Part shown: in pieces, positions 16,422-33,210 of the stretch | Numbering within the stretch: position 1 is the stretch's first letter | Layout: each line of letters opens with the position of its first letter | Origin: an uncultured bacterium | GTDB taxonomy: Bacteria > Atribacterota > Atribacteria > Atribacterales > Caldatribacteriaceae | DNA length: 64,000 nt | Direction: 5' to 3' | NCBI GenBank assembly: GCA_937139415.1 | Contig: CAKZPS010000062.1 | Coordinates: forward strand, 1 to 64,000 | The notes under the pieces: generated by a model | The model's database searches: none | Told to the model about the DNA's origin: nothing | Seen by the model: only the letters and a program-made list of their open reading frames with translations | Made by a program: the position numbers and the translations under genes

Positions 16422-18545
16422 GTGCCTATGTCTAATCGTTCCAAGCATCGCAAAGCGCGTAAAGCGGTCAAAATTTTTCGTGACACCTATCTCTTAGGGT
16501 TTCTATTTTTCCTCACCCTCCTTTCCGCCTACTATCGTGGGTTGTATTTCGATTTCGAGCGCCTCCGTTTCTTTATTGCCCTCTGGGTAGCCGTTACGGT
16601 TTTCTTTTTCCTCCGTTTTTTCGCCCTGCAAGAGTTCATTACCCTCAAAACCCCTTGGGAATGGAGTTTTCTCTTGTTGGTAGCGTTATATCTCTTCAAT
16701 GTTCCTTGGGCTGCCGATAAAGGTCTTGCCTGGAGAGAGTTTCTGACTTACTTCAGTTTTTTTGTGTTCTTTCTCGTGGTTGAATATGTTGCCCCTCTTT
16801 TGCAAACCAAGGGAAGGTGGTTTCTCTTCTTTTTTGGCCTGAGTGCGACTCTGCTCACTTTCCTGGGATTATTTTCCCATTTTGGGGTCTTGAAGCCTAC
16901 CGTACTTCCCACTTATTTGAGTACGGTTGGACTCTTTGTCGGTGGACGCCTCTATTCGACCTTTCAATATCCAAATACAGCTGCTTCCTATTTTGCCATG
17001 GCCTATTTTGGACTTTTAACCTTTTTTCTCTTAGAAGGGCATAGGCTTTGGAAAAACCTGGCTCTCTTTCTCTCTTTTCTGGTATTAGGGGGCATGTTCT
17101 TTACCTATTCGCGAGGGACGTTTCTTACCTTTCCTCTCACCCTTCTCTTCCTCCTCCTTGTTCTTCCTCGAGAGGTTAAAACTCGTTTCTTCCTCGTTGA
17201 GGTGGTTTCCGGCCTGGTTTTTGTGATCTTCCTCCCCTTCCTTGAGCACCACCTTACCGAAGTGGAAGGAGGAGCTTTTTTTGCTTGGTTTTTGGGCGGT
17301 GCCTTGCTCCTTGTCTCCGTTGCCTCACTTCTTCTTCGAGGAGAAAAGAAGTTGGTGCAGTGGTCTCGTCGATGGTATGTTTTCGTGGGAGCCGTTGTTG
17401 TGATCGTAGCACTTTCCCTATTTTTCATGCATGGTTCACAGCTTCTTCCCTCACAGCTCCTTCAACGTCTTCAAAGTATCCGTTTATCGGATCCTAATGT
17501 GGTCGGAAGATTTACCTTTTTCCGTGATGCCTGGGAGATCGGCTTAGAGAGACCGTTACAAGGATGGGGTGGGGGAGCCTGGAAGGTGATGTATCTTGCT
17601 TACCAGTCGGCACCATATTTTACCGAGAGCACCCATAATTTCTATGCGCAGGTTTTCGTGGAAGGTGGATTCTTAGGGCTCTTCTTCCTTTTCGCTTTGT
17701 TCTTTTCGCTTTTTACAGGAATGTGGACCAAGAGAAAAGCGTTTACTGGGGAAAGGGCGATTTTAGGATGGGGCATTATGGGTATGCTCTTCATGGGTTT
17801 TGCCCACAGCTTCTTGGATATTAATTTCTCCTTAGGTTCGTATCACTTCGCCATTTGGTTTTTTGCTGGTGTGATCGGGGGAATGATACGAGAGAGTAAT
17901 CCTCCCCTTCCCCGTTTCTGTCCTAAACTGACGATCAACTCCGGATGGGGATTTCTGCTCGCCGTCGTTTTTCTCATCAGTGTTTCGCTCATGGCTTACG
18001 GAGTTGAGCAGGCTATGGTAGGAGAGTATCTTTTGGGACAAGGAAATCTGGAAGAGGCAGTCGCTTTCTATCGCGATGCAGCACGTTTTGATTTCTTGAA
18101 TGCGCAAGTGCACCTCGGTTTGAGCCAAGCGTACCGGGGGTTATTGCTGGAGAATAACGAAAAAGCATGGCGAGAACTGAGCGAGGAAGAAGCCAAAAGA
18201 GCGTATCGTTTATCTCCCTTTCGCTATATCCATGCAGAACATTTGGGGCTCCTCTATGTGGAGAGTGGTCGATTCGAAGAAGGTTTGAAATTCTTTCACG
18301 AGGCGGTAGAGAAAGCTCATCTCTTCCCGGTGGCCTATGAACACTTGGCTTTAGCCTATAAGAGTGTAGGCGATTTCTACTGGTCTCGTGGAGAAAAAGA
18401 AAAAGCCAAAGATTTTTATAGCAAGGGAGTCAATGTGTGGGAATTATTCTTGGAGAATACTCGTTCTTTTCCCGAGGCGAGAGCACAAGGAAAAGAGTTG
18501 CAGAAAATTATTCGGGAATTACAATCCGCTGTAGAAAGGGAGTGA
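16422..18545 (+). CDS. O-antigen ligase/polymerase-like membrane protein with C-terminal TPR region
   Basis: A 707-residue polytopic membrane protein. About residues 20-510 contain around a dozen hydrophobic segments, with a Wzy_C/WaaL-like periplasmic region (STFQYPNTAASYFAM near 183, and STHNFYAQVFVEGGFLGL near 403). Residues from about 545 to 690 are soluble and look like tetratricopeptide repeats (GNLEEAVAFYRDAARFD, then ESGRFEEGLKFFHEAVEKA). Such fusions occur in thermophilic and Gram-negative bacteria and may join glycans to lipids or proteins. The start is GTG 16422 or ATG 16428, directly after the preceding stop. The glycan substrate is unknown and no other polysaccharide genes lie beside it. 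Confidence 0.8.
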   Translation: MPMSNRSKHRKARKAVKIFRDTYLLGFLFFLTLLSAYYRGLYFDFERLRFFIALWVAVTVFFFLRFFALQEFITLKTPWEWSFLLLVALYLFNVPWAADKGLAWREFLTYFSFFVFFLVVEYVAPLLQTKGRWFLFFFGLSATLLTFLGLFSHFGVLKPTVLPTYLSTVGLFVGGRLYSTFQYPNTAASYFAMAYFGLLTFFLLEGHRLWKNLALFLSFLVLGGMFFTYSRGTFLTFPLTLLFLLLVLPREVKTRFFLVEVVSGLVFVIFLPFLEHHLTEVEGGAFFAWFLGGALLLVSVASLLLRGEKKLVQWSRRWYVFVGAVVVIVALSLFFMHGSQLLPSQLLQRLQSIRLSDPNVVGRFTFFRDAWEIGLERPLQGWGGGAWKVMYLAYQSAPYFTESTHNFYAQVFVEGGFLGLFFLFALFFSLFTGMWTKRKAFTGERAILGWGIMGMLFMGFAHSFLDINFSLGSYHFAIWFFAGVIGGMIRESNPPLPRFCPKLTINSGWGFLLAVVFLISVSLMAYGVEQAMVGEYLLGQGNLEEAVAFYRDAARFDFLNAQVHLGLSQAYRGLLLENNEKAWRELSEEEAKRAYRLSPFRYIHAEHLGLLYVESGRFEEGLKFFHEAVEKAHLFPVAYEHLALAYKSVGDFYWSRGEKEKAKDFYSKGVNVWELFLENTRSFPEARAQGKELQKIIRELQSAVERE

Positions 18546-18549
18546 TAGT

Positions 18550-19122
18550 ATGAGGTGGTCACGACACTCGATGGTTCGAATAGTGATGTTGTTTGTTTCC
18601 TTAGTGATCATGGGCGGTTGTTCTTTCTCTGAGAATAACCCTATTTCCTCTCCTCAACCGACTCCTCCTGAGGAGGATGGGGGAATCCAATTCGTTCTTT
18701 TTGATATCACCGGCAACGAAGTTTCTTTCCAGAACTTTCGAGGAAAACCGGCAGTCTTGATCTTTTTCAAAACCTATTGCCCCCATTGCCAGGATGAGGC
18801 ACCTTTTCTCGAAACGGTGTACCAGAAATATCGCGATCAGGTGGAATTTTTGGGAATAGCGGTTAACGAACAGGGGACTTCGGGTGCCTTAATTGCCGAG
18901 CGCTCGATGTATGCAATTCAGGTGAGGAATCAATTTGTGGAGCGATACGGATGGACCTTCCCGGTTTTAATTGATGACTACGGAAGGGTGCAACGGGAAC
19001 TCGCCGGTACCGGAGTTCCTTCTCTCGTTTTTGTGGATGCTCGGGGATTTGTGAAAAAGGTGATCAAAGAAGTTATTTCCCAGAGCGCGTTGGAACAGGC
19101 TATCGTCGTCTACCTTCTGTGA
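18550..19122 (+). CDS. TlpA/ResA-like thiol-disulfide lipoprotein
   Basis: A 190-residue envelope lipoprotein. The N-terminal signal ends in the lipobox IMGGC with Cys at about 24, followed by a Pro/Ser-rich tether. The thioredoxin fold (about 50-190) has the active-site CPHC at about 77-80 and the cis-Pro region in GTGVPSLVFVDARG, typical of TlpA/ResA/AhpC-TSA reductases. It probably reduces disulfides on exported proteins; the partner is unknown. ATG 18550 lies 4 nt after the ligase stop, with GGGAG upstream. It is the last gene before a convergent hairpin at 19145-19187. Confidence 0.88.
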   Translation: MRWSRHSMVRIVMLFVSLVIMGGCSFSENNPISSPQPTPPEEDGGIQFVLFDITGNEVSFQNFRGKPAVLIFFKTYCPHCQDEAPFLETVYQKYRDQVEFLGIAVNEQGTSGALIAERSMYAIQVRNQFVERYGWTFPVLIDDYGRVQRELAGTGVPSLVFVDARGFVKKVIKEVISQSALEQAIVVYLL

Positions 19123-19203: not shown

Positions 19204-20532
19204 TCATTCCGAAAGTGCCCAGTCGAGGTATTCTTCCAATACCCCTAAGGCGTCTAAAAGATCAAGAAGAGTGAGGCGTTCCCGTAAGAATCGTGCATAT
19301 AAGAATGCTTCGCGGATGAGAGACGGAGGAAATCCGAGTTCTTCAAGGCTTTGGGGGGCAAGAGCTCGAGAGAGAGTGCGCGATGGAGAGGGGAGGGAAG
19401 AGAGTTTATCTTCGATAGCTTCGCGGAACTGCTCCGTTTTGAGCACTTCAAGTGGACAAGGCGTGAGCTTTTGCTTTTTGAGTACTACTTCTTGAGCAAA
19501 AGGGAATAAAGGTCCAAAGTGCATCTTTATTGTTTCAAATTTTTCATGGGAGAGAAGGATCCAGGTTCTGCGAGCGAGATCATTTACCTCTTCTAAGAAA
19601 CGGTGATACATTTTGCTCACCACCACGGTTGCTCCCCCTACTCTGAGTCCGTGGAGGGAGGGGTGAATCCCCCGGTGGAGGGCCATGATTTCAAGGTAAT
19701 GGGCGACGAGATGTTCGGCGCCGGAGGCGGGACGGGAGTCACCGACCATATCCATTCCCATTCCGGAATAGAGTGAAGCTAAGGAGAGATCGAAAATACT
19801 CTTTTCATCTCTTTGGGGAAGTTTTTCCGCTTCTTGATCTAAGGTCATGAGTCTCGTTTTGGTATCCTCCCAAATTGGTTGACAGAAGCTTTCTTGCCAG
19901 AGCATCGTCCGCATAGCCCAATCAGCATTGGAGGTGATTTTCCCCACCAGGTCGGCCAAACCGGCGTGGATGAGAGGGAGAGGAGCACGAGTAAGGACGT
20001 CTAAGTCGGCAAAGATTACCTGAGGGGGTGTAGCGTCGTAGGTAACTTTGTATCCTCCTACAAGCATCGGTGTCCCTGGTGAAGAATAACCATCCATCGA
20101 CGGGGCTGTGGCAACGGCCACGAAAGGGATGGACAATCGGTGGGCAACGAATTTGGTCAGATCAGTGATCACTCCGGAACCGATGGCCATGAGGAGATTC
20201 GGCTCGTAGTAGAGATAAGAACCTATGGTACTCCGGGCTTCCTCATCGGGTTCGAGGTATGGCCAATCTGGTTTGGGAGAAAGTGGACAGGCGATGGTTT
20301 CAAAGTGCTCTCCTTGTAATGTTTCTTCCACATATTTACCGGCCGCGCGATAGGTATTTTCATCGAAAACGAGCAGTATTTTTTTACCGAGATTCAGCTC
20401 GGTTAATACCTCAGGGATACGGGCTAAAATCCCTTTCCCTACGATGATTTTCTTGGTTCGCACGGAATGAGTTTTCCCGCAACTACAGGGAAAAAGTTGG
20501 TTCTCTAATTGGGCGATAAAATAGTTTTCCAT
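19204..20532 (-). CDS. araM: AraM-family glycerol-1-phosphate dehydrogenase
   Basis: A 442-residue metal- and NAD(P)H-dependent dehydrogenase of the AraM/EgsA family, which reduces dihydroxyacetone phosphate to sn-glycerol 1-phosphate. The NAD-binding and active-site stretch IGSGVITDLTKFVA, then TAPSMDGYSSPGTPM, is clear. Metal ligands are visible as Asp in AGLADLVGK, His in SGAEHLVAHYLE and His in HPSLHGLRVGG. It is the last gene of a seven-gene minus-strand operon and directly follows an AraL-like phosphatase, the same order as araL-araM in Bacillus subtilis, although no arabinose genes are here. G1P is a precursor of archaeal-type or heptaprenylglyceryl lipids, so a lipid role is possible. 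GAAAGGG precedes the ATG. Confidence 0.88.
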   Translation of the reverse strand: MENYFIAQLENQLFPCSCGKTHSVRTKKIIVGKGILARIPEVLTELNLGKKILLVFDENTYRAAGKYVEETLQGEHFETIACPLSPKPDWPYLEPDEEARSTIGSYLYYEPNLLMAIGSGVITDLTKFVAHRLSIPFVAVATAPSMDGYSSPGTPMLVGGYKVTYDATPPQVIFADLDVLTRAPLPLIHAGLADLVGKITSNADWAMRTMLWQESFCQPIWEDTKTRLMTLDQEAEKLPQRDEKSIFDLSLASLYSGMGMDMVGDSRPASGAEHLVAHYLEIMALHRGIHPSLHGLRVGGATVVVSKMYHRFLEEVNDLARRTWILLSHEKFETIKMHFGPLFPFAQEVVLKKQKLTPCPLEVLKTEQFREAIEDKLSSLPSPSRTLSRALAPQSLEELGFPPSLIREAFLYARFLRERLTLLDLLDALGVLEEYLDWALSE

Positions 20533-20546
20533 ACCCTTTCATCTCC

Positions 20547-21332
20547 TCAACGAGAAATATGCTCTTCAAGTTCTTTCAGTGAGGAAAAGACAAAATCAGG
20601 TTGCCACCTTGATTTGGGTACATCTTCTTTGCTGGTTTCGCCGGTGAGAACAAGAATCGTGGTTATGCCTGCTTGACGGCCCATGGCGATATCAGTGTAT
20701 AAACGATCGCCAATCATCGCAGTTTCTTCTCTTTGGGCCTGTGTTTTGTGCAATACATAGTCAATCATTTCTGGGTAGGGCTTACCAAATATTTTCGGCG
20801 TGACACCGGTGAATGCTTCAATGGCTTTCATGATTGATCCAGCGTCTAAGATGGGACCGTTTTCCGTAGGACAGACTAAGTCTGGGTGGGTGGCGAAAAA
20901 GGGGATGCCCTTTCGAATGAATTGGCACGCACGATTGAGTTTTTCGTAGGTGAGAGTTTTGTCAAAGCCTAAAACAACGTAGTCAGGGTCTTCGTGTACC
21001 AGGGTAAGACCGGCTTGGAGGAATTCAATCTCTAATTCGGGAGTGCCGAGGAGGAAGACCCGAGCGCGAGGCTTCATGTTTTTCAAGTAGAATGCACATA
21101 CCTCTCCAGAGGTGATAATATGAGAACGGGTGCAGGAGACAACGCCCATATTGTGGAGTTTTTGGGCGTAGAAGGAAGCTCGATGAGAAGAGTTATTGGT
21201 TAAGAAGTAGAAACGCTTGCCTTGATTGCGAAGAGTGTTCAGAAAATCTTTTGCTCCGGGGAGGAGTTGGTTCCCCAAATATACTGTTCCGTCCATATCT
21301 AAGAGGAAAGTACGAATGAGAGAAAGTTCCAT
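20547..21332 (-). CDS. HAD-IIA family phosphatase (NagD/AraL-like)
   Basis: A 261-residue HAD hydrolase. Motif I DMDGTVYLGN carries the nucleophile and acid Asp, motif II is FLTNNSS, the cap is of C2 (NagD) type, and motif IV is MIGDRLYTDIAMG. NagD/AraL enzymes dephosphorylate sugar phosphates, p-nitrophenyl phosphate and glycerol phosphate-type substrates. GGAGG precedes the ATG by 6 nt. It is 14 nt upstream of araM, so by analogy with Bacillus AraL-AraM the two probably work on related metabolites, perhaps removing toxic phosphates. The exact substrate is not visible from sequence. Confidence 0.88.
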   Translation of the reverse strand: MELSLIRTFLLDMDGTVYLGNQLLPGAKDFLNTLRNQGKRFYFLTNNSSHRASFYAQKLHNMGVVSCTRSHIITSGEVCAFYLKNMKPRARVFLLGTPELEIEFLQAGLTLVHEDPDYVVLGFDKTLTYEKLNRACQFIRKGIPFFATHPDLVCPTENGPILDAGSIMKAIEAFTGVTPKIFGKPYPEMIDYVLHKTQAQREETAMIGDRLYTDIAMGRQAGITTILVLTGETSKEDVPKSRWQPDFVFSSLKELEEHISR

Positions 21333-21344
21333 AAATGGCCTCCT

Positions 21345-22469
21345 CTAAGGAAGAAGATTGGGATATCGGGAAGCTAAGTCTTCAGAGAGCTCGATTTTGG
21401 TGTCGAGGATGCCCACGCCATATTGCTCCGAGAGGGTGTCTTGGTACGCTTTATTACTTAAAATATTTTTGAGAATAATAGGATGGTTTTGAACATAGAC
21501 ATAAGTGAGAGAGCGAATTTCTTCCATGGATGGAGGTGCAGGGAGGGTAACTCCCTTTTCGATGACGTATTCCCAGAGTTCTTGAGAATAACTTTCCGGA
21601 TGTTCGGTGATATATTGAGAGAAATACTCTTGGATCTCGAGTTTCAGGTCTTCGAGGGTTGGATCGGAGGTGGCTTCTTTTTGCAGATACTCGGTGAGTT
21701 TTTCCAAGATTTGGTTATCGGTTTGGAAAATGGTCCCAATTGCTGGGGGTTCTAATTTATACCAAGGGTATCGTTCTAAATATTTCCAAATTTGAATTTT
21801 TTGTTCGGAGAGAGATGTTGGTCTTCGGGGTTCCAAGGCTTTTTGGATGAGGTAAATTTTGAAATGAATGCTTTGAGAGATTTCTGCTAAGGTGGTCATG
21901 AGTGCTTGGGAAAAATCAAAATACACGATCTCTCGAAGGAGATCCAGGCGGTGAGAAGGAATGACTCGCCCACTTTTGGTCAGGGAGAGCAAGAAGGGGG
22001 AGGGGTTCGTTTCATTCTGATATTGGAAGGCCTTGGGGTCTAACTGACGGGCAAACTTTTTGAAATCCCCGATTTTGAAACTGCTCGTTACCGTACTGAT
22101 GTATGCGATACTCCCGTCATTGGGATTCCCAGTGATTTTGTCTTTTTGCCAAAGGGGGAAATGAAAAGAAAAAGAGAATTCAGCCTGGAGGGGCATCATC
22201 TCTTCTATGACCCCAAAAGGAGGGGGTTGGATAAAGAAGGTAAGGGGACGATCGGTTTTGTTGGTCAGTACTCGAACCCGAAAAGGAAGGGCAGTGGGCC
22301 CAAAGAGAGCTCCTTCCTTACTCCACACTTCTCGCACAATGGCTACGCTCTGGGGAGGAAGGGAATGACGACATAACACCAACACCGCAAGAACGGAAAC
22401 CAAAAGAAATATGACCAAAAGGCCGAGAATTAAGTTACCCAGAAAACGGAAAAAATTTTTCCAGGGCAT
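21345..22469 (-). CDS. Membrane-anchored protein of unknown function, possibly SPFH-like
   Basis: A 374-residue protein I do not recognise. One strong hydrophobic segment lies at about residues 10-33 (FLGNLILGLLVIFLLVSVLA), so the rest is probably outside the membrane in a type II orientation. The following region starts PPQSVAIVREVW and has a beta-rich stretch with an SPFH/band-7-like flavour, then alternating helices rich in Glu, Gln and Lys (about 190-370). ATG 22469 is preferred since GAGGAG lies 5 nt upstream; GTG 22475 is the alternative. It lies 13 nt after the 730-residue gene and 12 nt before the HAD gene, so it belongs to the same operon. Confidence 0.6.
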   Translation of the reverse strand: MPWKNFFRFLGNLILGLLVIFLLVSVLAVLVLCRHSLPPQSVAIVREVWSKEGALFGPTALPFRVRVLTNKTDRPLTFFIQPPPFGVIEEMMPLQAEFSFSFHFPLWQKDKITGNPNDGSIAYISTVTSSFKIGDFKKFARQLDPKAFQYQNETNPSPFLLSLTKSGRVIPSHRLDLLREIVYFDFSQALMTTLAEISQSIHFKIYLIQKALEPRRPTSLSEQKIQIWKYLERYPWYKLEPPAIGTIFQTDNQILEKLTEYLQKEATSDPTLEDLKLEIQEYFSQYITEHPESYSQELWEYVIEKGVTLPAPPSMEEIRSLTYVYVQNHPIILKNILSNKAYQDTLSEQYGVGILDTKIELSEDLASRYPNLLP

Positions 22470-22482
22470 AAGCACTCCTCTT

Positions 22483-24675
22483 TTATAGCAGATTTTGTCT
22501 CCGTTGGAGGAGCCTCAGATAATGGAGGTAAGAGACTCTTCCTAAGCGGAGATTCACGGATTGTAAACGGATACCGATGGCGGAAAGGAATGTTGCTCTT
22601 TTTTCACAGAGATAGTTGAGGGTGTCGAGATTCATGCGTTTTATCATCTCCTCTTTTTGAAGGTCTTCGGTAATCCGAGCGTTAATGAGTTCGGTCATGG
22701 CCATAAAAAGCAAGGTTTGATAGAGTCCTGGATATTCTGCAAATTCGAAGAGATTAGGATTCTGAAACATTTTTCTCACCTTGAGAGGATTAGCAATGAG
22801 TTCATCGTGTTCTTTTTTCATTTTTTCTTTAATCGTTTCTATTTCGTGTTGGACGAATTCTTGCCACTCCGGATTTTTTTCCAAGCGAGGATGGCGGAGG
22901 AGCCAATCTAAACCGACCAAGTACATATCGTATACCGAACCCACACGATAGGTATCAAGAGGTGAAGGATAGAGGAAACGGCGAACCCAAGTTTTAAAGT
23001 TGGCGCTTTTTGAGACTTCAGTGAGATGGGCCTTCGCTTGTTCATACTCTTCGCCCAAGAAGTTTTCCCGATATTCTCCCTGAAGGTCTTCAAAGTAAGA
23101 AGTGAAAGAGGTTTCTAAATCTCTCTCGAGACGTTCTTTTCCCATTCCGTCGAAGTCGTACTGTTTCCATTTTTCCGGGTCTTCAACCTGAAAAGATACA
23201 GTGCCTTCAAGAATGATAAAATCATTGCCGTACCCTTCTTTGAAAAAAGCCATGCCCTTTTCCCACAAGTATTTGAGGGTACCGATAATTCCACCCTGGA
23301 AGGATGGTTGTACCTCTTTCAAGATAAAAATGACTCTTGCGGTCTGAGGGCGCGAGGTGGCACGATGGGCAAAGGAGAAAGGACGAGGAGGGGCGACCAA
23401 GAGTTTTTTGCTTCCCAAGGTTAGAACCGGTTGGTGAATGACTTCTACTCTCTCTCCCCATATACCTTGCCATCCCGGTACAAACTTGCGGACCACGAGA
23501 AAATCGTCTTGGTTCACTAAGTGGAGACTGAAAAGGAATAGGGTTGATCCTATCATGATGGTGGTAAGAAGAAACGTTCGCAGAGGTGAAAGGAAAGGGC
23601 GTGGTCTCCCCAAAACAAGAAAGTCATCGATCGTCTCGGGTAAGAGGCAGATTCTCTTTGCTTGAGCAAGTCGAGCCATGCGGAGGTAAATTCGATGGTA
23701 AAAGTGGGTGAGGGTATCGAGGTGTTGCGGCTCTAAGCGGTTGTGCAATGTTCTCCGAAGTTCCTGCTCGAGCCGGTGGAATTGTTCAGCGACATCCATG
23801 GCTCTCGTTTTCTGGGGTTGCACGAGAAACGTTTGGAAGCTCTCGTGCATTGTGTTTGACCATTCCTGGTAGAAAGGAGAAGAAAAAAACTCTTGGAGGA
23901 GAGGGTGAGGATGAATTTCTATGATTTCTCTTTGGAAGTGATTCCTATGGAGGTAAGTGAGTTCTTGGAGGAGATCGCGGAGAGTTTCCTCTTCTTTCCA
24001 AGAAAGGCGTTTGGTATCGAGCATACTCTGGATGTCTTGGAGGAACGAGGAAATTCGAAGGTCGTTTTTTTCTTGCAAGGCAGTAATGAGCGTGGAGATA
24101 GAGGCGCGGATATCGGGGTTCTTCTCTCGAGAGAGAAAAAAGCGCAAATCTTCTATAAACCGTTCTCTTACTGAGGAATGGAGGTATTCCTCTACCTTCA
24201 AAAAGGCGAAGGCTTTTCTTTTGCCTTGAATGGTGTCACCGATCAAGAATTTTCGATATCCTATGTAGAGGAGAGGGGAGAGGATAAGTACTACGCGGGC
24301 ATAGTTATTGAGGTAGTCACCAACGGAGGTAAAAATATAGTCCACGAAGAGCGGAATGATGCCGATATTCCAAATAGCATAAGCAAAAAGGATGAATAGA
24401 GTAATTTCCATGAGATCCTTTCCTATGGAATGCCTGTACTCTTGGCGCCAGTAGAGGAATAGATTATGGCAATGGGTATTGATTTTCGTAGATGTTTCCG
24501 CATCGGGGGCGAAACTATATACCTTGTGGGTGAGAAAAGGTTCCCGTTTCTTTGAAAAGAGGACAAAAATCCTCTGCAGAATGTTTTTTGCTTGGTTTAC
24601 GGGAGTGATAATAACTCTTTTTTGAGGATAGAAAGGATGTGGGACTTCAAAATGTACCAGTGTTTTGAGTACCAT
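22483..24675 (-). CDS. Large membrane protein with a degenerate SPFH/HflK-like region
   Basis: A 730-residue protein without a named family. Hydrophobic segments are at about 84-111, 118-138 and 365-392. Between them is a helical, Arg/Glu-rich domain of about 220 residues. After the third segment (about 395-580) the sequence resembles the SPFH/HflK fold: DDFLVVRKFVPGWQGIW, then LEGTVSFQVEDPEKW followed by a helix rich in Leu and Glu, the pattern of YRIxDPxx in HflK and prohibitins. The C-terminal 150 residues are again helical. It starts 2 nt after the M14-like gene, so coupling is likely. SPFH membership is my inference; I cannot run a profile search. Confidence 0.6.
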   Translation of the reverse strand: MVLKTLVHFEVPHPFYPQKRVIITPVNQAKNILQRIFVLFSKKREPFLTHKVYSFAPDAETSTKINTHCHNLFLYWRQEYRHSIGKDLMEITLFILFAYAIWNIGIIPLFVDYIFTSVGDYLNNYARVVLILSPLLYIGYRKFLIGDTIQGKRKAFAFLKVEEYLHSSVRERFIEDLRFFLSREKNPDIRASISTLITALQEKNDLRISSFLQDIQSMLDTKRLSWKEEETLRDLLQELTYLHRNHFQREIIEIHPHPLLQEFFSSPFYQEWSNTMHESFQTFLVQPQKTRAMDVAEQFHRLEQELRRTLHNRLEPQHLDTLTHFYHRIYLRMARLAQAKRICLLPETIDDFLVLGRPRPFLSPLRTFLLTTIMIGSTLFLFSLHLVNQDDFLVVRKFVPGWQGIWGERVEVIHQPVLTLGSKKLLVAPPRPFSFAHRATSRPQTARVIFILKEVQPSFQGGIIGTLKYLWEKGMAFFKEGYGNDFIILEGTVSFQVEDPEKWKQYDFDGMGKERLERDLETSFTSYFEDLQGEYRENFLGEEYEQAKAHLTEVSKSANFKTWVRRFLYPSPLDTYRVGSVYDMYLVGLDWLLRHPRLEKNPEWQEFVQHEIETIKEKMKKEHDELIANPLKVRKMFQNPNLFEFAEYPGLYQTLLFMAMTELINARITEDLQKEEMIKRMNLDTLNYLCEKRATFLSAIGIRLQSVNLRLGRVSYLHYLRLLQRRQNLL

Positions 24676-24677
24676 TT

Positions 24678-25832
24678 TTAGAACCTTTCCCCCTTTATTT
24701 CTACTCTCAAGGTTCCGTCAACAAAGGCCAAACCTTGAAGAATCCTTTCCTGTCGCGATTGCGAGAAGGTTTCAATGGTTCTTCCCACACATCCAGTACA
24801 AGCCTGGTAGAAATCCGGTGCCAAAGCAATTTTGGTTTTCCAGAAGAGAGGACCGATTAGGTAAATTCCTTCGTAAACAGGGAGTTCCCTTTCTTCGAAG
24901 AAGGGGAACTCTCGAAAAAGGGCTTCAAACTGTTCGGAAAAAATATTGACCCCTAATTGTTTCATGTAGTTACGGATAGCGAGAGTTTTTTGAACGGAAG
25001 GGTGATGCTTCACGATTTCATGACGGTACTTGGGAGGAAGGAAGGGAAAACGCTCTCGAAACCAACAATCCAACTTTTCTCTCCAGTGCAGGGGATACCG
25101 CAGGGAGACAATCCTTTCTCTCTCCTCGGGACTGAAATAATCGTGAAGGAGGATCATCACTCCTGCATTTTTGTATACGAACTCGCTCTCCAAGGTGGTG
25201 GTTTCGTGGAGGCTGGAGTACACTTTGAGGGAAGGAGCTCTGTGTAAGAGGTATTCTTGGAGCGCCAGGATTCTTTTGCTTTTGAGTTGGTTCAATCTCC
25301 TTCCAAAGACGGCATTCGTATCTTCCCAGCCGAAGATGTTCTTAATATGTTGGACATTAACCACTACCGGCGTGCGTACTTCTTCTCCGCTCCGATCCAC
25401 ATAGGCTCTGGTTTCTTTATGCCATCCGTCGGGATCGATAACTGGGAGGAAGATACAGTAAACGTCACGAAGAAGCTCTTCCCGCTCTTTTCCCGACTGA
25501 AGGAGTGAGAAAAACGCTGCAAGGAGAGTAGCGGAGTGAAGTTTTTCTCCTCCATGGCACGTTGCCTCAAAAACCAGGGTGTTCCAAGAAGCATGGGGAT
25601 TACCGATTTCAAGGATGGGTATTTTTCTTCCTCCTGAGGTAACGAAATGGTTATTTTTTGCAGGGAGAAAAGAGAAGTGAGCTTTGAACGGGGAGGTGCG
25701 AGAAAATTCATGAAAAGTTGCAGTGAGATTTTCGATAAAATCTTCGTAACCGAGATTGAGCCAGGGGAGAAAAGTCGAGGAGAGAGAATAATCGATGATT
25801 CCGGTATCTCTATACAGTGCGCGCATTTCCAT
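24678..25832 (-). CDS. Zinc carboxypeptidase-like protein (M14 / succinylglutamate desuccinylase-like)
   Basis: A 384-residue protein with the M14-type zinc triad: His93 and Glu96 in ATCHGGEK, and His209 in YSSLHETTT. LPVIDPDGW (about 129-137) resembles the conserved NPDG strand of metallocarboxypeptidases. There is no signal peptide, so it appears cytoplasmic, which suggests an amidase or deacylase of a soluble or membrane-bound substrate rather than periplasmic peptidoglycan trimming. It overlaps the preceding gene by 23 nt and ends 2 nt before the SPFH-like gene. The overall sequence is divergent, so the family call is moderate and the substrate unknown. Confidence 0.65.
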   Translation of the reverse strand: MEMRALYRDTGIIDYSLSSTFLPWLNLGYEDFIENLTATFHEFSRTSPFKAHFSFLPAKNNHFVTSGGRKIPILEIGNPHASWNTLVFEATCHGGEKLHSATLLAAFFSLLQSGKEREELLRDVYCIFLPVIDPDGWHKETRAYVDRSGEEVRTPVVVNVQHIKNIFGWEDTNAVFGRRLNQLKSKRILALQEYLLHRAPSLKVYSSLHETTTLESEFVYKNAGVMILLHDYFSPEERERIVSLRYPLHWREKLDCWFRERFPFLPPKYRHEIVKHHPSVQKTLAIRNYMKQLGVNIFSEQFEALFREFPFFEERELPVYEGIYLIGPLFWKTKIALAPDFYQACTGCVGRTIETFSQSRQERILQGLAFVDGTLRVEIKGERF

Positions 25833-26616
25833 CTCTATCGCCTTGCTCTTGCCAAGGGAATAATGGGATGGGCGGGCGGAGGAATTTCGTCCACTCGCTT
25901 TTTTCGGTTGCCTGGGTTGCCGGCCAATAAAAGTCTTTCAAAAATCCCAGCCCTAAAATAGTGCACACTCGAGCCGCTTGGTTAAAGCCCTCCCCATGTC
26001 GGTCTTCTCTTACGATTTGATTCAATTGTTTCAAGGCGGTATTTTCCACTACCCTCAGGGTAACATTTTCCAACATTTCTTCCATGCCGTTTTCGATTTC
26101 TTGATAGTGGTGGAGAAGGTTCATATAGTTACGATCTTCGAAGTATGGATCGCCGATGATCATATCCCAAGTCATGGGTTGAAAACCGGGAATACCGTGC
26201 ATAATGAACACGATGGGGAAGAGACGATGGAGAATACCGTAAAAACCTCGCATCCGAAAACGGCCGTAATGGTAAAAAAGATGACGTTGTTTTTCTTGAT
26301 GAAAGATGAGGGCATCTTCTTTGTAAGCAGTGTCTAAAAATCCCTCTTTTATGTAATTGAGAACCTCAGTCGCGGTTTTCGTGGGAGTGAGGGAGAGGAA
26401 AGAGCCATCTCTTTCCACCTTGAGAAAATCTCCCGGTAAGGCAGAAAAAGTTTGGAAATCTTCTTCACTCTCGGTGTGGAGAATCATTTCGGTGTTTTCT
26501 CCACGGTACACCTTTCGGTATCGTGCCATTCTCTCTTCAGCGAAGAAAGGATGGCGAGGTAAAAAGAGGACGTATCCGTGCTTATTGAAAAGCTTGTAGA
26601 GATGAATTTTGGGCAT
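25810..26616 (-). CDS. Unknown protein of the M14/SPFH-like operon
   Basis: A 268-residue protein that I do not recognise. The start is taken as ATG 26616 (MPKIHLYKLF) with AAGGAAG about 5-9 nt upstream; an in-frame codon at 26649 would add eleven residues. The first half is beta-rich with charged turns (RYRKVYRGENTEM). One moderately hydrophobic stretch near 123-140 (ILHRLFPIVFIMHGIPGF) could touch or cross the membrane. It overlaps the upstream gene by 35 nt and the M14-like gene by 23 nt, unusually long overlaps that imply obligatory co-translation. Confidence 0.55.
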   Translation of the reverse strand: MPKIHLYKLFNKHGYVLFLPRHPFFAEERMARYRKVYRGENTEMILHTESEEDFQTFSALPGDFLKVERDGSFLSLTPTKTATEVLNYIKEGFLDTAYKEDALIFHQEKQRHLFYHYGRFRMRGFYGILHRLFPIVFIMHGIPGFQPMTWDMIIGDPYFEDRNYMNLLHHYQEIENGMEEMLENVTLRVVENTALKQLNQIVREDRHGEGFNQAARVCTILGLGFLKDFYWPATQATEKSEWTKFLRPPIPLFPWQEQGDRDGNARTV

Positions 26617-27460
26617 AGTCACTTCCTTGGAAGAAAGCATAAGGATCAAAAGAGAGGTTTCTTACCGGTACAATGGGACGAGGAATGAAGATTTCAGGGA
26701 GGAGTAAGAGATCCCCCAGGAAGAAACGCGCCAACTTTTTCATCGGAGTATGGGCGATTCGTTTGAGGAGGAAACTCTCTTCCCGTTCTCGCTGTAAGAG
26801 GCTAAGGTAAATTTTTCCAATTTCACCAAAGGCAGGATTGAGCTTCTCTCGTTCTCGACAAAAAGAGATGAGATCCAAGAGAGCATCTCTCTCTGCTTTT
26901 TGGAGTTGGGTGTAAAAGGCAAAGACTTGGTTGATTGCCTCTCTTCGCATGGCATCTTGACCGTCAATGATTCTTTTTTTCACACACTTTTGGAAGCTTT
27001 TAGTTTTCCGTCTCTTCCACCAATTATCGATCCCAGATAGAGCCAAATAGGGTTGACGGAACCAAATGAACCACCAAGTATTCACGCTGAAAAGGCCGAT
27101 AATGTATGCTACAAGACACAGAGAGAACATGAAACGATAATTGCTTCCTACGCTTTCGTAGAGATCAAGCTGGTACATGAAGCTCTCGAGGAGATTATCC
27201 CATGAAGTAAGAAGAGCCTCCTTTTCCCCTTCGGAGAGTGCCGAAGAACACTCTGGGGCATACAGTTCGATGGTCATAAGCCATGATTCTTGACGGTACG
27301 CTTTGGTCCCCAATTCAAGGAGGGTGGGAACGAAAGAAGCAGCCCACGCTCCTTCCTCATACCAACCGGAAAGCTTTATAGGAACGATGTAGGCTGGAAT
27401 TTGTGTTTCTCCTAAACTGTTTCTCCAATTTATCAATATTCTCGATTGCACCTCACTCAT
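26582..27460 (-). CDS. Unknown membrane protein, first gene of the seven-gene operon
   Basis: A 292-residue protein of unknown family. A hydrophobic, aromatic-rich stretch at about 106-133 (FMFSLCLVAYIIGLF, then WWFIWFRQPYLAL) forms one or two membrane segments. The N-terminal part is acidic and looks beta-rich; the C-terminal half is helical and charged (QAMRRE-type repeats of Lys, Arg and Glu), similar in style to the helical parts of the 730-residue protein. The ATG at 27460 has no purine-rich ribosome-binding site and lies only 11 nt after a plausible -10 element, so its mRNA may be nearly leaderless. It is divergent from the HD-GYP pair. Confidence 0.55.
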   Translation of the reverse strand: MSEVQSRILINWRNSLGETQIPAYIVPIKLSGWYEEGAWAASFVPTLLELGTKAYRQESWLMTIELYAPECSSALSEGEKEALLTSWDNLLESFMYQLDLYESVGSNYRFMFSLCLVAYIIGLFSVNTWWFIWFRQPYLALSGIDNWWKRRKTKSFQKCVKKRIIDGQDAMRREAINQVFAFYTQLQKAERDALLDLISFCREREKLNPAFGEIGKIYLSLLQREREESFLLKRIAHTPMKKLARFFLGDLLLLPEIFIPRPIVPVRNLSFDPYAFFQGSDYAQNSSLQAFQ

Positions 27461-27522: not shown

Positions 27523-28659
27523 ATGATCAAAGTTAAGGTGCACGATCTGAAGCCGGGTATGGTAGTTGGTTATCCACTCCTACGAGACGATGGCGTCGTC
27601 CTTCTCCGTGAGGGGGTAACACTTACACGTCGCTTAATCGAGAGAATTAAAGAAACGGGTTTTGAATGTATCTATATCCGCGACCGGAGATTTAGAGATG
27701 TAGATTTGGAAGAGGCGATTTCCTACGATGTGCGTCGTCAAGCTCTCCTCACCCTCAATGAATCTTTCTCCAGTATCATGAAAGGGAGACAAACTTCTCT
27801 TGAGCCGATTCGCCGCTTGGTTGATGAAATTATCGACGAAGTTTTGAGTACCAAGAAATCGGTGGTTAGTTTGATTCAGTTACGTCAACATGACGATGCG
27901 GTATTCTCTCATTCGGTCAATGTTTCTGCGCTCTCGGTTTTTTTGGGAAGATTTTTGGGTCTCTCTCGAGAACAACTTCGTGTTTTGGCGTTGGGGAGTT
28001 TGATGCACGACCTCGGTAAAATCAGAATCCCCCTCGAGATTCTCAATAAACCCGGCACACTCACCCCCTCCGAATGGGAAACCATGCGTGGACATCCTCT
28101 GTGGTCAGTAGAGCTCATGACTGGTAAAGTGCCCGAAGACAGTTTGAGCATCGCCATCGCCCTCCAACACCACGAACGTTTAGATGGGAGTGGTTATCCC
28201 TATGGTTTACTCGAACCGGATATCCACTTCCTCGCTCGTATTTGTGCCTGTAGCGATGTGTACGATGCCTTAACCGTGGATCGACCGTACCGAAAGCGTT
28301 TTTCCTATGCTGAGGCCTTAGAGTACTTAATGGGAAATGTGGGGAAGCTCTTCGATCTCCAAGTAGTAACCACCATGGTGCGTCATATTGCTCCCTACCC
28401 GGTGGGTGAAGTGGTGCGATTGACCACCGGAGAAGTAGGAGTGGTGGTTCGTCTCAATGAGGGATTACCCATTCGTCCAGTGGTGCGCGTCATTCAAGAT
28501 CGAGAAGGAAACACCTTGGAAAGACCCAAAGATATTGACCTCATGAGAGAGCTCACCGTGGCCATCACTGGTACAGAAAGCGTTCGATACAAAGACTATC
28601 GGAGATATGCTCCCCAAGAGGTAGGAGGCGTGGGAGGAAATGATGCGCGTTCCAGTTGA
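27523..28659 (+). CDS. HD-GYP domain protein 1 (putative cyclic-di-GMP phosphodiesterase)
   Basis: A 378-residue cytoplasmic protein. Residues 1-100 form a small N-terminal domain of the type often preceding HD-GYP (KVHDLKPGMVVGYPLLRDDG). The HD-GYP domain has H130, HD at 162-163, H191, HHE at 216-218 and the diagnostic DGSGYPYGL from about 221. All metal and GYP residues are present, so c-di-GMP hydrolysis is likely. ACGGAGGTT precedes the ATG. Residues 212-347 are identical at the DNA level to residues 211-346 of the next gene, while the first 211 differ strongly, evidence of gene conversion. Its last 17 codons region overlaps the start of gene 2. Confidence 0.9.
   Translation: MIKVKVHDLKPGMVVGYPLLRDDGVVLLREGVTLTRRLIERIKETGFECIYIRDRRFRDVDLEEAISYDVRRQALLTLNESFSSIMKGRQTSLEPIRRLVDEIIDEVLSTKKSVVSLIQLRQHDDAVFSHSVNVSALSVFLGRFLGLSREQLRVLALGSLMHDLGKIRIPLEILNKPGTLTPSEWETMRGHPLWSVELMTGKVPEDSLSIAIALQHHERLDGSGYPYGLLEPDIHFLARICACSDVYDALTVDRPYRKRFSYAEALEYLMGNVGKLFDLQVVTTMVRHIAPYPVGEVVRLTTGEVGVVVRLNEGLPIRPVVRVIQDREGNTLERPKDIDLMRELTVAITGTESVRYKDYRRYAPQEVGGVGGNDARSS
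28155..28565 (+). repeat. 411-bp identical direct repeat, copy 1
   Basis: I aligned this tract base by base with 29272-29682: all 411 bases match without gaps, and both flanks diverge at once (C28154 versus T29271; C28566 versus T29683). The offset is 1,117 bp. It encodes the C-terminal part of the HD-GYP domain plus tail. Confidence 0.97.
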
Positions 28660-29767
28660 AAAGCTTGAGCCTGGTATGAAAGTTGGATACCCGGTTTTGG
28701 GTGAGGATGGGTCGGTACTCCTCAACCAAGGAGTCATTTTGAATCCCACCTACATCCGTAGACTGAGAGAATTAGGATTTAAGTCAATTTTCGTTGAAAC
28801 AGATCTGTTTCAAGATGTCAAAATTGACGAGCCGATCAAACTCGATACCCGTCAAAGAGTGCAGAAGATTTTTCATGACACGGTGAAGCGCTTACAGAGG
28901 GGTGACATGACCTCGTATCGAGAGGTGAGTCGGGTCCTCGAGAACATTCTTGAGGAAATTTTAGCCCATGAGAAGAGTATCGTTTACTTAGTGCAGATGC
29001 GGAGTTGTAGTGATTCTATTTTCACTCACTCGGTCAATGTGGCAGTATTGAGCTTACTCCTCGGGAAGTATCTGGACTTGAGCCTACTGCAGCTTCGCAA
29101 GTTAGGATTAGGGGCTCTCTTACACGATTTGGGAAAGATTCGTTTTCCCGAAGGATTTTTGAAGGAGAAGGAATCCTTGGATGAGGAAGAGAAACGGATC
29201 ATCCGCATGCATCCCATATGGAGTAAGGAAATCATTCAAAGTCATACCGATTATGATTTTTTGGTTTCCCTCATCGCCCTCCAACACCACGAACGTTTAG
29301 ATGGGAGTGGTTATCCCTATGGTTTACTCGAACCGGATATCCACTTCCTCGCTCGTATTTGTGCCTGTAGCGATGTGTACGATGCCTTAACCGTGGATCG
29401 ACCGTACCGAAAGCGTTTTTCCTATGCTGAGGCCTTAGAGTACTTAATGGGAAATGTGGGGAAGCTCTTCGATCTCCAAGTAGTAACCACCATGGTGCGT
29501 CATATTGCTCCCTACCCGGTGGGTGAAGTGGTGCGATTGACCACCGGAGAAGTAGGAGTGGTGGTTCGTCTCAATGAGGGATTACCCATTCGTCCAGTGG
29601 TGCGCGTCATTCAAGATCGAGAAGGAAACACCTTGGAAAGACCCAAAGATATTGACCTCATGAGAGAGCTCACCGTGGCCATTTTGTGTCTCGCTGAAGA
29701 GAACGTAGAGGACTTCTACTCCCCGCATGGAGTGCCCACCCTTGGAGAAAGTGAGTTCATTGATTAG
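28643..29767 (+). CDS. HD-GYP domain protein 2 (putative cyclic-di-GMP phosphodiesterase)
   Basis: A 374-residue paralogue of the preceding protein with the same layout: N-terminal domain (VEKLEPGMKVGYPVLGEDG), then HD-GYP with HDLGK, HHE and DGSGYP motifs. ATG 28643 is preferred because GGGAGGAA lies 4-5 nt upstream; ATG 28640 is adjacent. It overlaps gene 1 by 17 nt, so both are translated together. Residues 211-346 are encoded by DNA identical to gene 1, whereas the N-terminal 210 residues are only moderately similar, and the extreme C-terminus differs. Its final 11 bases overlap the convergent radical SAM gene. Confidence 0.9.
   Translation: MRVPVEKLEPGMKVGYPVLGEDGSVLLNQGVILNPTYIRRLRELGFKSIFVETDLFQDVKIDEPIKLDTRQRVQKIFHDTVKRLQRGDMTSYREVSRVLENILEEILAHEKSIVYLVQMRSCSDSIFTHSVNVAVLSLLLGKYLDLSLLQLRKLGLGALLHDLGKIRFPEGFLKEKESLDEEEKRIIRMHPIWSKEIIQSHTDYDFLVSLIALQHHERLDGSGYPYGLLEPDIHFLARICACSDVYDALTVDRPYRKRFSYAEALEYLMGNVGKLFDLQVVTTMVRHIAPYPVGEVVRLTTGEVGVVVRLNEGLPIRPVVRVIQDREGNTLERPKDIDLMRELTVAILCLAEENVEDFYSPHGVPTLGESEFID
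29272..29682 (+). repeat. 411-bp identical direct repeat, copy 2
   Basis: Second copy of the tract at 28155-28565, 100% identical over 411 bp. Recombination between the copies would delete 1,117 bp and leave a single in-frame chimeric HD-GYP gene. Confidence 0.97.
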
Positions 29768-31180: not shown

Positions 31181-31933
31181 CTAACCCTCCTTTTTCTCGG
31201 GGAAGGCAAAAGCCTTGATAAATTCGAGTGGCAAAGGAAACACTATGGTAGTAGCATTTTCGGCGGAAATATCACTCAAGGTTTGGAGATAGCGGAGTTG
31301 GAGAGCGATGGGGTTTTCAGCAATGATTTTCGCTGCTTGAGAGAGTTTCTCAGCGGCTTGGAATTCCCCTTCGGCATTGATGATTTTTGCTCTCCTTTCT
31401 CGCTCTGTTTCCGCTTGGCGGGCCATGGCCCGTTTCAATTCTTCTGGGAGAGTGACTTCCTTAATCTCCACGGCCGATACCTTAATGCCCCAGGGATCGG
31501 TTTTCTCATCAATAATTTTCTGGAGAGATTCGTTGATCTTATCTCGATGGATTAAGAGTTCGTCGAGCTCGGATTGGCCGACCACACTACGCAAAGTAGT
31601 TTGAGAAATGAGCGAGGTCGCTAAAATATAATTTTCTACCTTGGTAACCGCCTCTTCGGAATTCATCACCCGGAAGTAAACCACTGCGTCGACGGTAACC
31701 GGAACGTTATCCCGGGTAATGAGTTCTTGTTTGGGAACGTCCATGGTCATCACCCGTAAGTCTACCTTTACCAATTGATCAATGAAGGGAATCACGAAGA
31801 ACAAGCCCGGTCCCTTTGCGCCAACCAGTCTTCCTAAGCGGAAAATAACCCCTCTTTCATATTCCCGAACCACCCGAATGGCGGCGAATAAGAAAATCAA
31901 CACCACGATGATCAAGATGAAAAGAGCGCCCAT
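31181..31933 (-). CDS. Slipin (stomatin/SPFH family membrane protein)
   Basis: A 250-residue SPFH protein. One N-terminal membrane segment (about 3-20) is followed by the band-7 domain: [21 protein letters not shown], then [16 protein letters not shown], and a long helix [25 protein letters not shown] ending in an Ala/Glu-rich coiled coil (about 165-215). Slipins form oligomeric membrane scaffolds and are classically encoded beside an NfeD-type serine protease that cleaves their C-terminus. That partner lies 3 nt upstream here, so the pair is a complete slipin-NfeD unit. The C-terminal hydrophobic stretch [12 protein letters not shown] matches the protease recognition region known from Pyrococcus. 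Confidence 0.93.
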
Positions 31934-31936
31934 TTT

Positions 31937-33169
31937 CTATTCCTCCTTTCTGACGATGAGAATTTGTCCTTCTTTGCGAAGGACTTTTATCCGCTCGTTT
32001 TTGCGGATGGGGTTTTCCCCTCGAACCCACCACAATTCTCCATCAATCACCGCAAACCCCTCTGGGGAGAGGTCTTCTTTCGCAACACCACATTTTCCGA
32101 CCATGGAATCCATGCCTATCTTGACTTTTTGTCGCACGGTTCTCACCACCGCAAAGAGGATCACAATGAGAAAGAACGCTAAAGAGGAGACGATTGCCAA
32201 AATGAGAGAGAAGGAGAGGGTTATTCCCTTTCCGGGAGTGAAAAGAGTGAGTGATCCCAAGAAAAAGGCTATCACTCCTCCGACGCTGAGGATACCTATC
32301 CCTGGAGTAACGAAGAAGTCCAGGACGAAGAAAAGAATACCCAGGAATATGAGTACCATTCCGACCAGATTAACGGGGAGGAGGGAAAAGGCATAAAAGG
32401 AGAGAAGGAGAAGGATACTTCCAAAAACTCCGGGAACAATGGCTCCGGGATTCGCCAATTCGAAAACGATACCCAAGGCTCCCAGGGTGAGAAAGAGGTA
32501 GGCGAAATTAGGGTTGAGGAGATATTGCATGATTTTTTCTTTGGTGTTCATATCTATTTTCACGATTTGCGAATTTTCAAGGTGCACAAATTGTAAGACA
32601 TCTTCTACGCTTTGGGCAATACCTTCCACAATGCCATGATGCAGAGCTTCTTTTTCGGTGAGAGAGATGCTTTCGCGTACCATCTTTTCGGCTATTTCTG
32701 GATTCCGTTTCCGAGTTTCCGCTAAGGATCTCATGAAAGAGGCAGCGTCATTCACTATTTTTTCACTTACTGTTTGTCCTTCTGCGGTCACCGGATGTGC
32801 CGCACCTACGGTGGTATTAGGACTCATAAAGGCGTGGTGAGCAGAAATGAGGAGAAAACTCCCTGCAGAGGCGGCGCGTGCACCTTGCGGGAAAACGTAA
32901 ACCACTATAGGGATGGGAGAGCTCAGAATAGTTTTTACCATGTTGCGCATAGATTCTTCTAACCCTCCCGGTGTGTCTAAGAGGAGGACAATGGCTTGAA
33001 CGTTTTCTTCTTGGCCCTGTTTGAGGATTCTCGTCAAGAACTCTTCGGTAGCTGGGGTAATGGCTCCATTTATTTGACTCACTATGATTTCTGCCGAAGC
33101 TGCCAAAGAGTGATAACCAAGAATCCACAAGAAGAATATAAAGAGTATAAGAAGCTTCCCTTTTCGCAT
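31937..33169 (-). CDS. NfeD-type membrane serine protease (stomatin operon partner)
   Basis: A 410-residue membrane protease. A signal segment (about 8-25) is followed by a ClpP-class domain (about 27-225) with the nucleophile Ser in GARAASAGSF and probable catalytic Lys in SEKIVND. Four to five membrane segments follow (about 235-340), then a C-terminal OB-fold NfeD domain (MVGKCGVAKEDLSPEGFAVIDGELW). This is the full-length NfeD1b type that pairs with slipin. ATG 33169 follows AAAAGGGG; a longer in-frame start at 33196 is less likely. An extended -10 (TGCTACAAT) lies just upstream on the minus strand. Confidence 0.92.
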   Translation of the reverse strand: MRKGKLLILFIFFLWILGYHSLAASAEIIVSQINGAITPATEEFLTRILKQGQEENVQAIVLLLDTPGGLEESMRNMVKTILSSPIPIVVYVFPQGARAASAGSFLLISAHHAFMSPNTTVGAAHPVTAEGQTVSEKIVNDAASFMRSLAETRKRNPEIAEKMVRESISLTEKEALHHGIVEGIAQSVEDVLQFVHLENSQIVKIDMNTKEKIMQYLLNPNFAYLFLTLGALGIVFELANPGAIVPGVFGSILLLLSFYAFSLLPVNLVGMVLIFLGILFFVLDFFVTPGIGILSVGGVIAFFLGSLTLFTPGKGITLSFSLILAIVSSLAFFLIVILFAVVRTVRQKVKIGMDSMVGKCGVAKEDLSPEGFAVIDGELWWVRGENPIRKNERIKVLRKEGQILIVRKEE

Positions 33170-33210
33170 TCTTAACCCCTTTTCATTGTAGCACAAGAGA
33201 GGAATTAGTG

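Follow-up and report, generated by a model that had tools for sequence, protein, structure and literature searches.

SPFH complexes built from two paralogues, such as HflK/C, FLOT1/2 and Erlin1/2, alternate their subunits in a membrane-bound cage (PMC12624060). For the bacterial SPFH complexes known so far, the partners considered are FtsH or NfeD (PMC13086221, PMC12048511), and HflK/C controls FtsH (PMC12048511). Two arrangements of this kind lie closest to the locus analyzed here. In HflK/HflC, two adjacent paralogous genes, the larger preceding the smaller, each encode a transmembrane (TM) segment followed by an SPFH domain, and together with FtsH they place a scaffold over a cytoplasmic hydrolase; in the stomatin/NfeD (STOPP) pair, an SPFH protein is encoded next to a membrane hydrolase. 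The locus repeats the gene layout of the former with an SPFH-like pair, by analogy also its scaffold over a hydrolase, and shares with the latter the joint encoding of the two functions; it differs from both in the hydrolase, which is M14-like rather than FtsH or a ClpP-class NfeD protein, and from STOPP further in that STOPP has a single SPFH protein and no homologues of the genes A, B and C described below.

The window, a stretch of 64,000 nucleotides that was analyzed as a whole, lies on C62, a contig in an assembly of 2.32 Mb from the family Caldatribacteriaceae (Atribacterota). Its ORF list contains seven consecutive genes between 19204 and 27460, all on the minus strand, of which the first five are named A-E here and the last two araL and araM:

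26582..27460, minus strand: gene A, 292 aa, orphan carrying a single hydrophobic stretch
25810..26616, minus strand: gene B, 268 aa, soluble orphan
24678..25832, minus strand: gene C, 384 aa, M14-fold metallohydrolase
22483..24675, minus strand: gene D, 730 aa, C-terminal half predicted SPFH-like
21345..22469, minus strand: gene E, 374 aa (376 from GTG 22475), predicted SPFH-like, HflC-like partner of D
20547..21332, minus strand: araL-like HAD-IIA phosphatase, downstream of and outside the five-gene unit
19204..20532, minus strand: araM-like protein of the G1P-dehydrogenase family, downstream of and outside the five-gene unit

With B starting at ATG 26616 (268 aa; conservation and the SD-like CAAGGAAG favor this start) and E at ATG 22469 (374 aa), A and B overlap by 35 nt and B and C by 23 nt, followed by gaps of 2 nt between C and D, 13 nt between D and E (7 nt if E starts at GTG 22475), 12 nt between E and araL, and 14 nt between araL and araM. 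The seven-gene minus-strand operon proposed by the initial annotation is thus reproduced in its coordinates, its two overlaps and its gaps of 2-14 nt. In each of the seven genomes that permitted the measurement, A and B overlap by 23-35 nt with an unchanged relation of their frames, and genes C, D and E are likewise closely packed in relatives; the arrangement is therefore not due to chance.

Genes A-E were each detected, by profile or sequence searches, in the same nine of 50 Atribacterota genomes, with no detection in the remaining 41 (gene A in eight of the nine, the exception being G009, whose contig ends inside B; the search for gene D covered 41 of the 50 genomes). The nine genomes represent four of 22 genera. 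The order of the genes is constant among them, in G005 across a contig break. One of the cassette genomes, G014, comes from another family of the same taxonomic order. Two genomes that lack the cassette, G008 (L099) from the same family and G012 (L100) from another, have the upstream HD-GYP gene immediately before araL-araM, with no A-E in between; these clean empty sites imply that the block comes and goes as one piece. A-E thus form one unit, and the initial proposal that five unfamiliar genes form a conserved system is substantiated by their co-occurrence, their constant order and the conserved A/B overlap. The gene-neighborhood comparison in relatives, which had been suggested as a check, finds A-E co-conserved and also separable from araL-araM. 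As the genes are linked and mostly inherited vertically, one or two evolutionary events may be all that underlies their phyletic pattern, and an AraM tree did not discriminate between gain and loss of the cassette. Outside Atribacterota, a wider contig search with the C profile, a method that reaches close relatives only, matched only loci of the Atribacterota type. In one cassette genome (G001, L011), gene E of the metagenome-assembled sequence contains a single in-frame TAG, reflecting either a disrupted gene or an error in the sequence.

A discrete block that is present or absent at one site between genera could also be a mobile or anti-phage defense island. However, A-E have no PADLOC match at E <= 1, no phage or plasmid homologues were found for the proteins tried, the window contains no tRNA, and both the site and the gene order persist in two families whose divergence is ordinary; we consider such an island very improbable and reject it, primarily for want of a PADLOC match and of phage or plasmid homologues. 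About as little probability attaches to a role in the machinery for the intracytoplasmic membrane that surrounds the nucleoid in Atribacterota. This membrane has been described in Atribacter laminatus RT761 (PMC7736352) and reported in Thermatribacter velox B11 (PMC11227167), and the cassette does encode membrane proteins confined to the phylum that has this unusual structure; moreover, G014, which bears the cassette, is probably T. velox B11. The complete 3.1 Mb genome G017, however, which is probably that of A. laminatus RT761, has none of A-E, making this role unlikely.

The last two genes were correctly recognized by the initial annotation, as family searches return an AraL-like HAD-IIA phosphatase and an AraM-like, G1P-dehydrogenase-like protein. 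The same combination is found side by side in AraL-AraM of Bacillus subtilis, the difference being that the present pair lies downstream of the cassette and is fused in some JS1 genomes. Wherever the junction is covered in cassette genomes, araLM directly follows E, and this continuity, together with the common strand and the short gaps, is what speaks for assigning all seven genes to one pathway of G1P-lipid synthesis or envelope remodeling, in which AraM would make G1P, AraL would dephosphorylate an intermediate, and the membrane proteins and the M14 enzyme would build or trim the product. Against this, an AraM homologue is present in 26 of 50 Atribacterota genomes and A-E in nine; araM, often with araL, occurs in further cassette-free relatives; and in two JS1-type genomes (G046 and G033) AraM and AraL form one ORF of about 740 aa (L107:2432-4654 and L108:463-2682). 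Since it adjoins HD-GYP without A-E in G008 and G012 and is fused in JS1, araL-araM is a co-directional but separate, older unit; its place behind the cassette probably reflects no more than the insertion of a block upstream of it. In addition, PcrB/GGGPS (prenyl-G1P synthase) has no match in the genome itself, and its matches in other genomes are weak, mostly 44-52 residues long and confined to one part of the profile; they look like phosphate-binding motifs shared among TIM barrels. With araLM separable and no convincing PcrB/GGGPS, the link between the cassette and G1P-derived lipid drawn in the initial annotation is left with adjacency as its basis; we reject the seven-gene pathway as improbable. 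As an observation on the pair itself, the fusion in the JS1-type genomes suggests channeling of DHAP by way of G1P into glycerol or some other phosphate product.

Among A-E, gene C is the one that family profiles recognize. It scores 28.2 bits against Pfam Peptidase_M14 (PF00246; cut-off 21.6) and is the sole gene of its genome above this cut-off; eight of nine C relatives match the profile at E <= 1, the best at 1e-9. The zinc ligands H93, E96 and H209, which the initial annotation had picked out as an M14-type triad, are invariant in all nine C sequences and the assignment therefore stands. The alignment with an M14 enzyme from JS1 pairs CHGGE with IHGGE, LPVIDPDG with LPVMNPDG, and SSLH with ATLH. 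C shares with the M14 metallocarboxypeptidase family the HxxE...H zinc site, the (N/D)PDG turn and apparently also a Glu near the C-terminus. The latter would be E354, which is invariant in the nine sequences within the motif GRTIETF and apparently represents the catalytic Glu of C; the computed alignment stops short of this region, and TIETF was paired by eye with TIEVY of the JS1 enzyme. The spacing from His209 to Glu354 is about 145 residues, compared with about 75 in the JS1 enzyme. The second difference concerns substrate binding: the DxNR motif of the family, DLNR in the JS1 enzyme, aligns with D171-x-N173-A174 of C, and D-x-N-A is invariant in the nine sequences. The Arg of the M14 Asn-Arg pair binds the free carboxylate, as established for carboxypeptidase A; its loss suggests that C is a hydrolase other than a classical carboxypeptidase. 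Finally, C differs from the family in that no signal peptide was seen in it; the search for a TM segment was negative as well. The same holds for B, in which neither a TM segment nor a signal peptide was seen, and both proteins are thus probably cytoplasmic.

Proteins D and E share a common layout in their models, consisting of a TM helix, a beta-rich domain, helices and a terminal strand, with the TM segment (about residues 15-33 in E, 364-383 in D) directly ahead of the beta-rich domain. In E this is the whole protein, from the N-terminal TM segment through the SPFH-like domain and the helical region to the terminal strand; in D it is preceded by an N-terminal alpha/beta domain, a probable TM hairpin (about 90-144) and a helical middle, and the part with the predicted SPFH-like fold comprises residues 384-714. 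The AlphaFold models have a pLDDT of 83.3 and a pTM of 0.75 for E, and of 77.2 and 0.54 for D. Compared by Foldseek with 350,542 PDB chains, E retrieves erlin, 7vhq_G (from a complex of the HflK/C type) and three stomatin chains as its top five matches, and D erlin, stomatin and FtsH-HflKC as its top three, all with weak E-values (0.004-0.2, none reaching 0.001), low TM-scores and poor superposition. The full-length alignment of the C-terminal half of D with E by hhalign scores 50.6 (P 3.9e-6), compared with at most 24.6 for 30 column-shuffled decoys; judging from this profile comparison, the two are homologous.

Sequence profiles return no SPFH assignment. E does not match Band_7 (PF01145), one of nine D members matches it at a non-significant E of 0.052, no family in the libraries searched recognizes either protein, and hhalign comparisons of D and E, whose alignments are shallow (7-9 sequences), with HflK, HflC and stomatin of the phylum and with a flotillin-like pair are not significant. 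This lack of a significant Band_7 signal, along with the weak E-values and low TM-scores, would be expected if D and E were a different kind of beta-rich module of the envelope that begins with a TM segment, and the cassette an unrelated envelope-biogenesis or secretion-like machine. We regard this as unlikely, because for two separate models the first ranks among 350,542 chains go exclusively to SPFH proteins, which would hardly occur by chance, and because the order of TM segment, beta-rich domain, helices and terminal strand fits the SPFH layout. D and E are therefore predicted, from their models, to be SPFH-like without being members of Band_7. The HflK/SPFH-like stretch that the initial annotation had noted in the fourth gene is consequently supported by the predicted fold and not by sequence profiles; E had been overlooked as a second protein of this type.

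An ordinary HflK/HflC (on C19) and a stomatin are encoded in the same genome away from D and E, which thus constitute an extra pair; FtsH is encoded at C62:83815. Relative to HflK/HflC, D and E lack a significant sequence relation that would indicate orthology, and D carries the additional N-terminal half, roughly 350 residues long, in which the probable TM hairpin is located. The N-terminus of E is positively charged, consistent with an N-in orientation by the positive-inside rule; for D this is ambiguous.

The remaining two proteins, A and B, match nothing known. Gene A has no family over cut-off in the library searches; its homologues in eight genomes of the cassette set are 43-63% identical, and its hydrophobic stretch, at about residues 108-135, contains the near-invariant FMFSLCLxAYIIGLFSVNTWWFIWFRQPYLA. 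Gene B is characterized by the invariant motifs LHRLFPI.FIMHG, GFQPM.WDM, GDPYFE and GLGFL.DF.WPATQATE. A sequence search of the PDB with A, B, D and E gave no credible match, the best matches of A being apparently designed coiled coils. A paralogous relationship of A with the N-terminus of D was considered and is not supported (hhalign 21.7, equal to the best shuffled decoy); B gives no hhalign signal with either D or A.

These considerations suggest, at a probability of about one half, that A-E are a single functional unit and form a lineage-specific membrane assembly in which SPFH-like D and E parallel HflK/C and serve the cytoplasmic M14-type hydrolase C. The C-terminal half of D and E would co-assemble on the cytoplasmic membrane in the manner of HflK/HflC, Erlin1/2 and PHB1/2, with their beta-rich domains outside and the large N-terminal half of D probably facing the cytoplasm; there, this half, together with the membrane protein A and the soluble protein B, would hold or control C, in a manner resembling the control of the protease FtsH by HflK/C. 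Such an assembly would likely serve to cleave a peptide or amide locally at the membrane, in protein quality control or in the processing of an envelope-derived peptide. Ring assembly, topology, the docking of C and the substrate class are inferred here. A bolder version, which we put forward as tentative and rather doubtful, is an SPFH machine of a new type: D and E would build a heterotypic SPFH-like cage, divergent in sequence, to which a modified M14 hydrolase is recruited in place of FtsH or NfeD; together with two families of unknown fold, this cage would make up a compartment for hydrolysis at the membrane that is particular to thermophilic Atribacterota.

If the HflK/C-like reading is true, a dedicated SPFH-like pair with an M14-fold hydrolase would widen what SPFH scaffolds do and would mean that some SPFH-like proteins escape the Band_7 profile. 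In any case, A and B represent two conserved families without a name, and the presence of A-E in an isolate, probably T. velox B11, opens the cassette to testing. A text search of a paper library for SPFH together with an M14 peptidase in an operon, or with a metallopeptidase in genomic context, returned nothing, which is weak evidence of novelty.

Several further features were observed around the cassette. A stomatin and a long NfeD of the ClpP class form a pair of the STOPP type at 31181-33196, a few kb away, and in G001 and G014 a stomatin is likewise found about 4-5 kb upstream of the cassette. Two tandem HD-GYP genes contain, at equal relative positions, a 411 bp segment that is 100% identical between them (28155-28565 and 29272-29682), reflecting either recent gene conversion or an assembly artefact; in cross-matches, the two copies share only about 58% protein identity with the copies of relatives. 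Convergent with araM, an O-antigen-ligase/TPR protein and a TlpA-like thioredoxin are encoded at 16422-19122, a neighborhood that is kept in relatives and contains two ligase copies in genomes of the G017 and G015 types.
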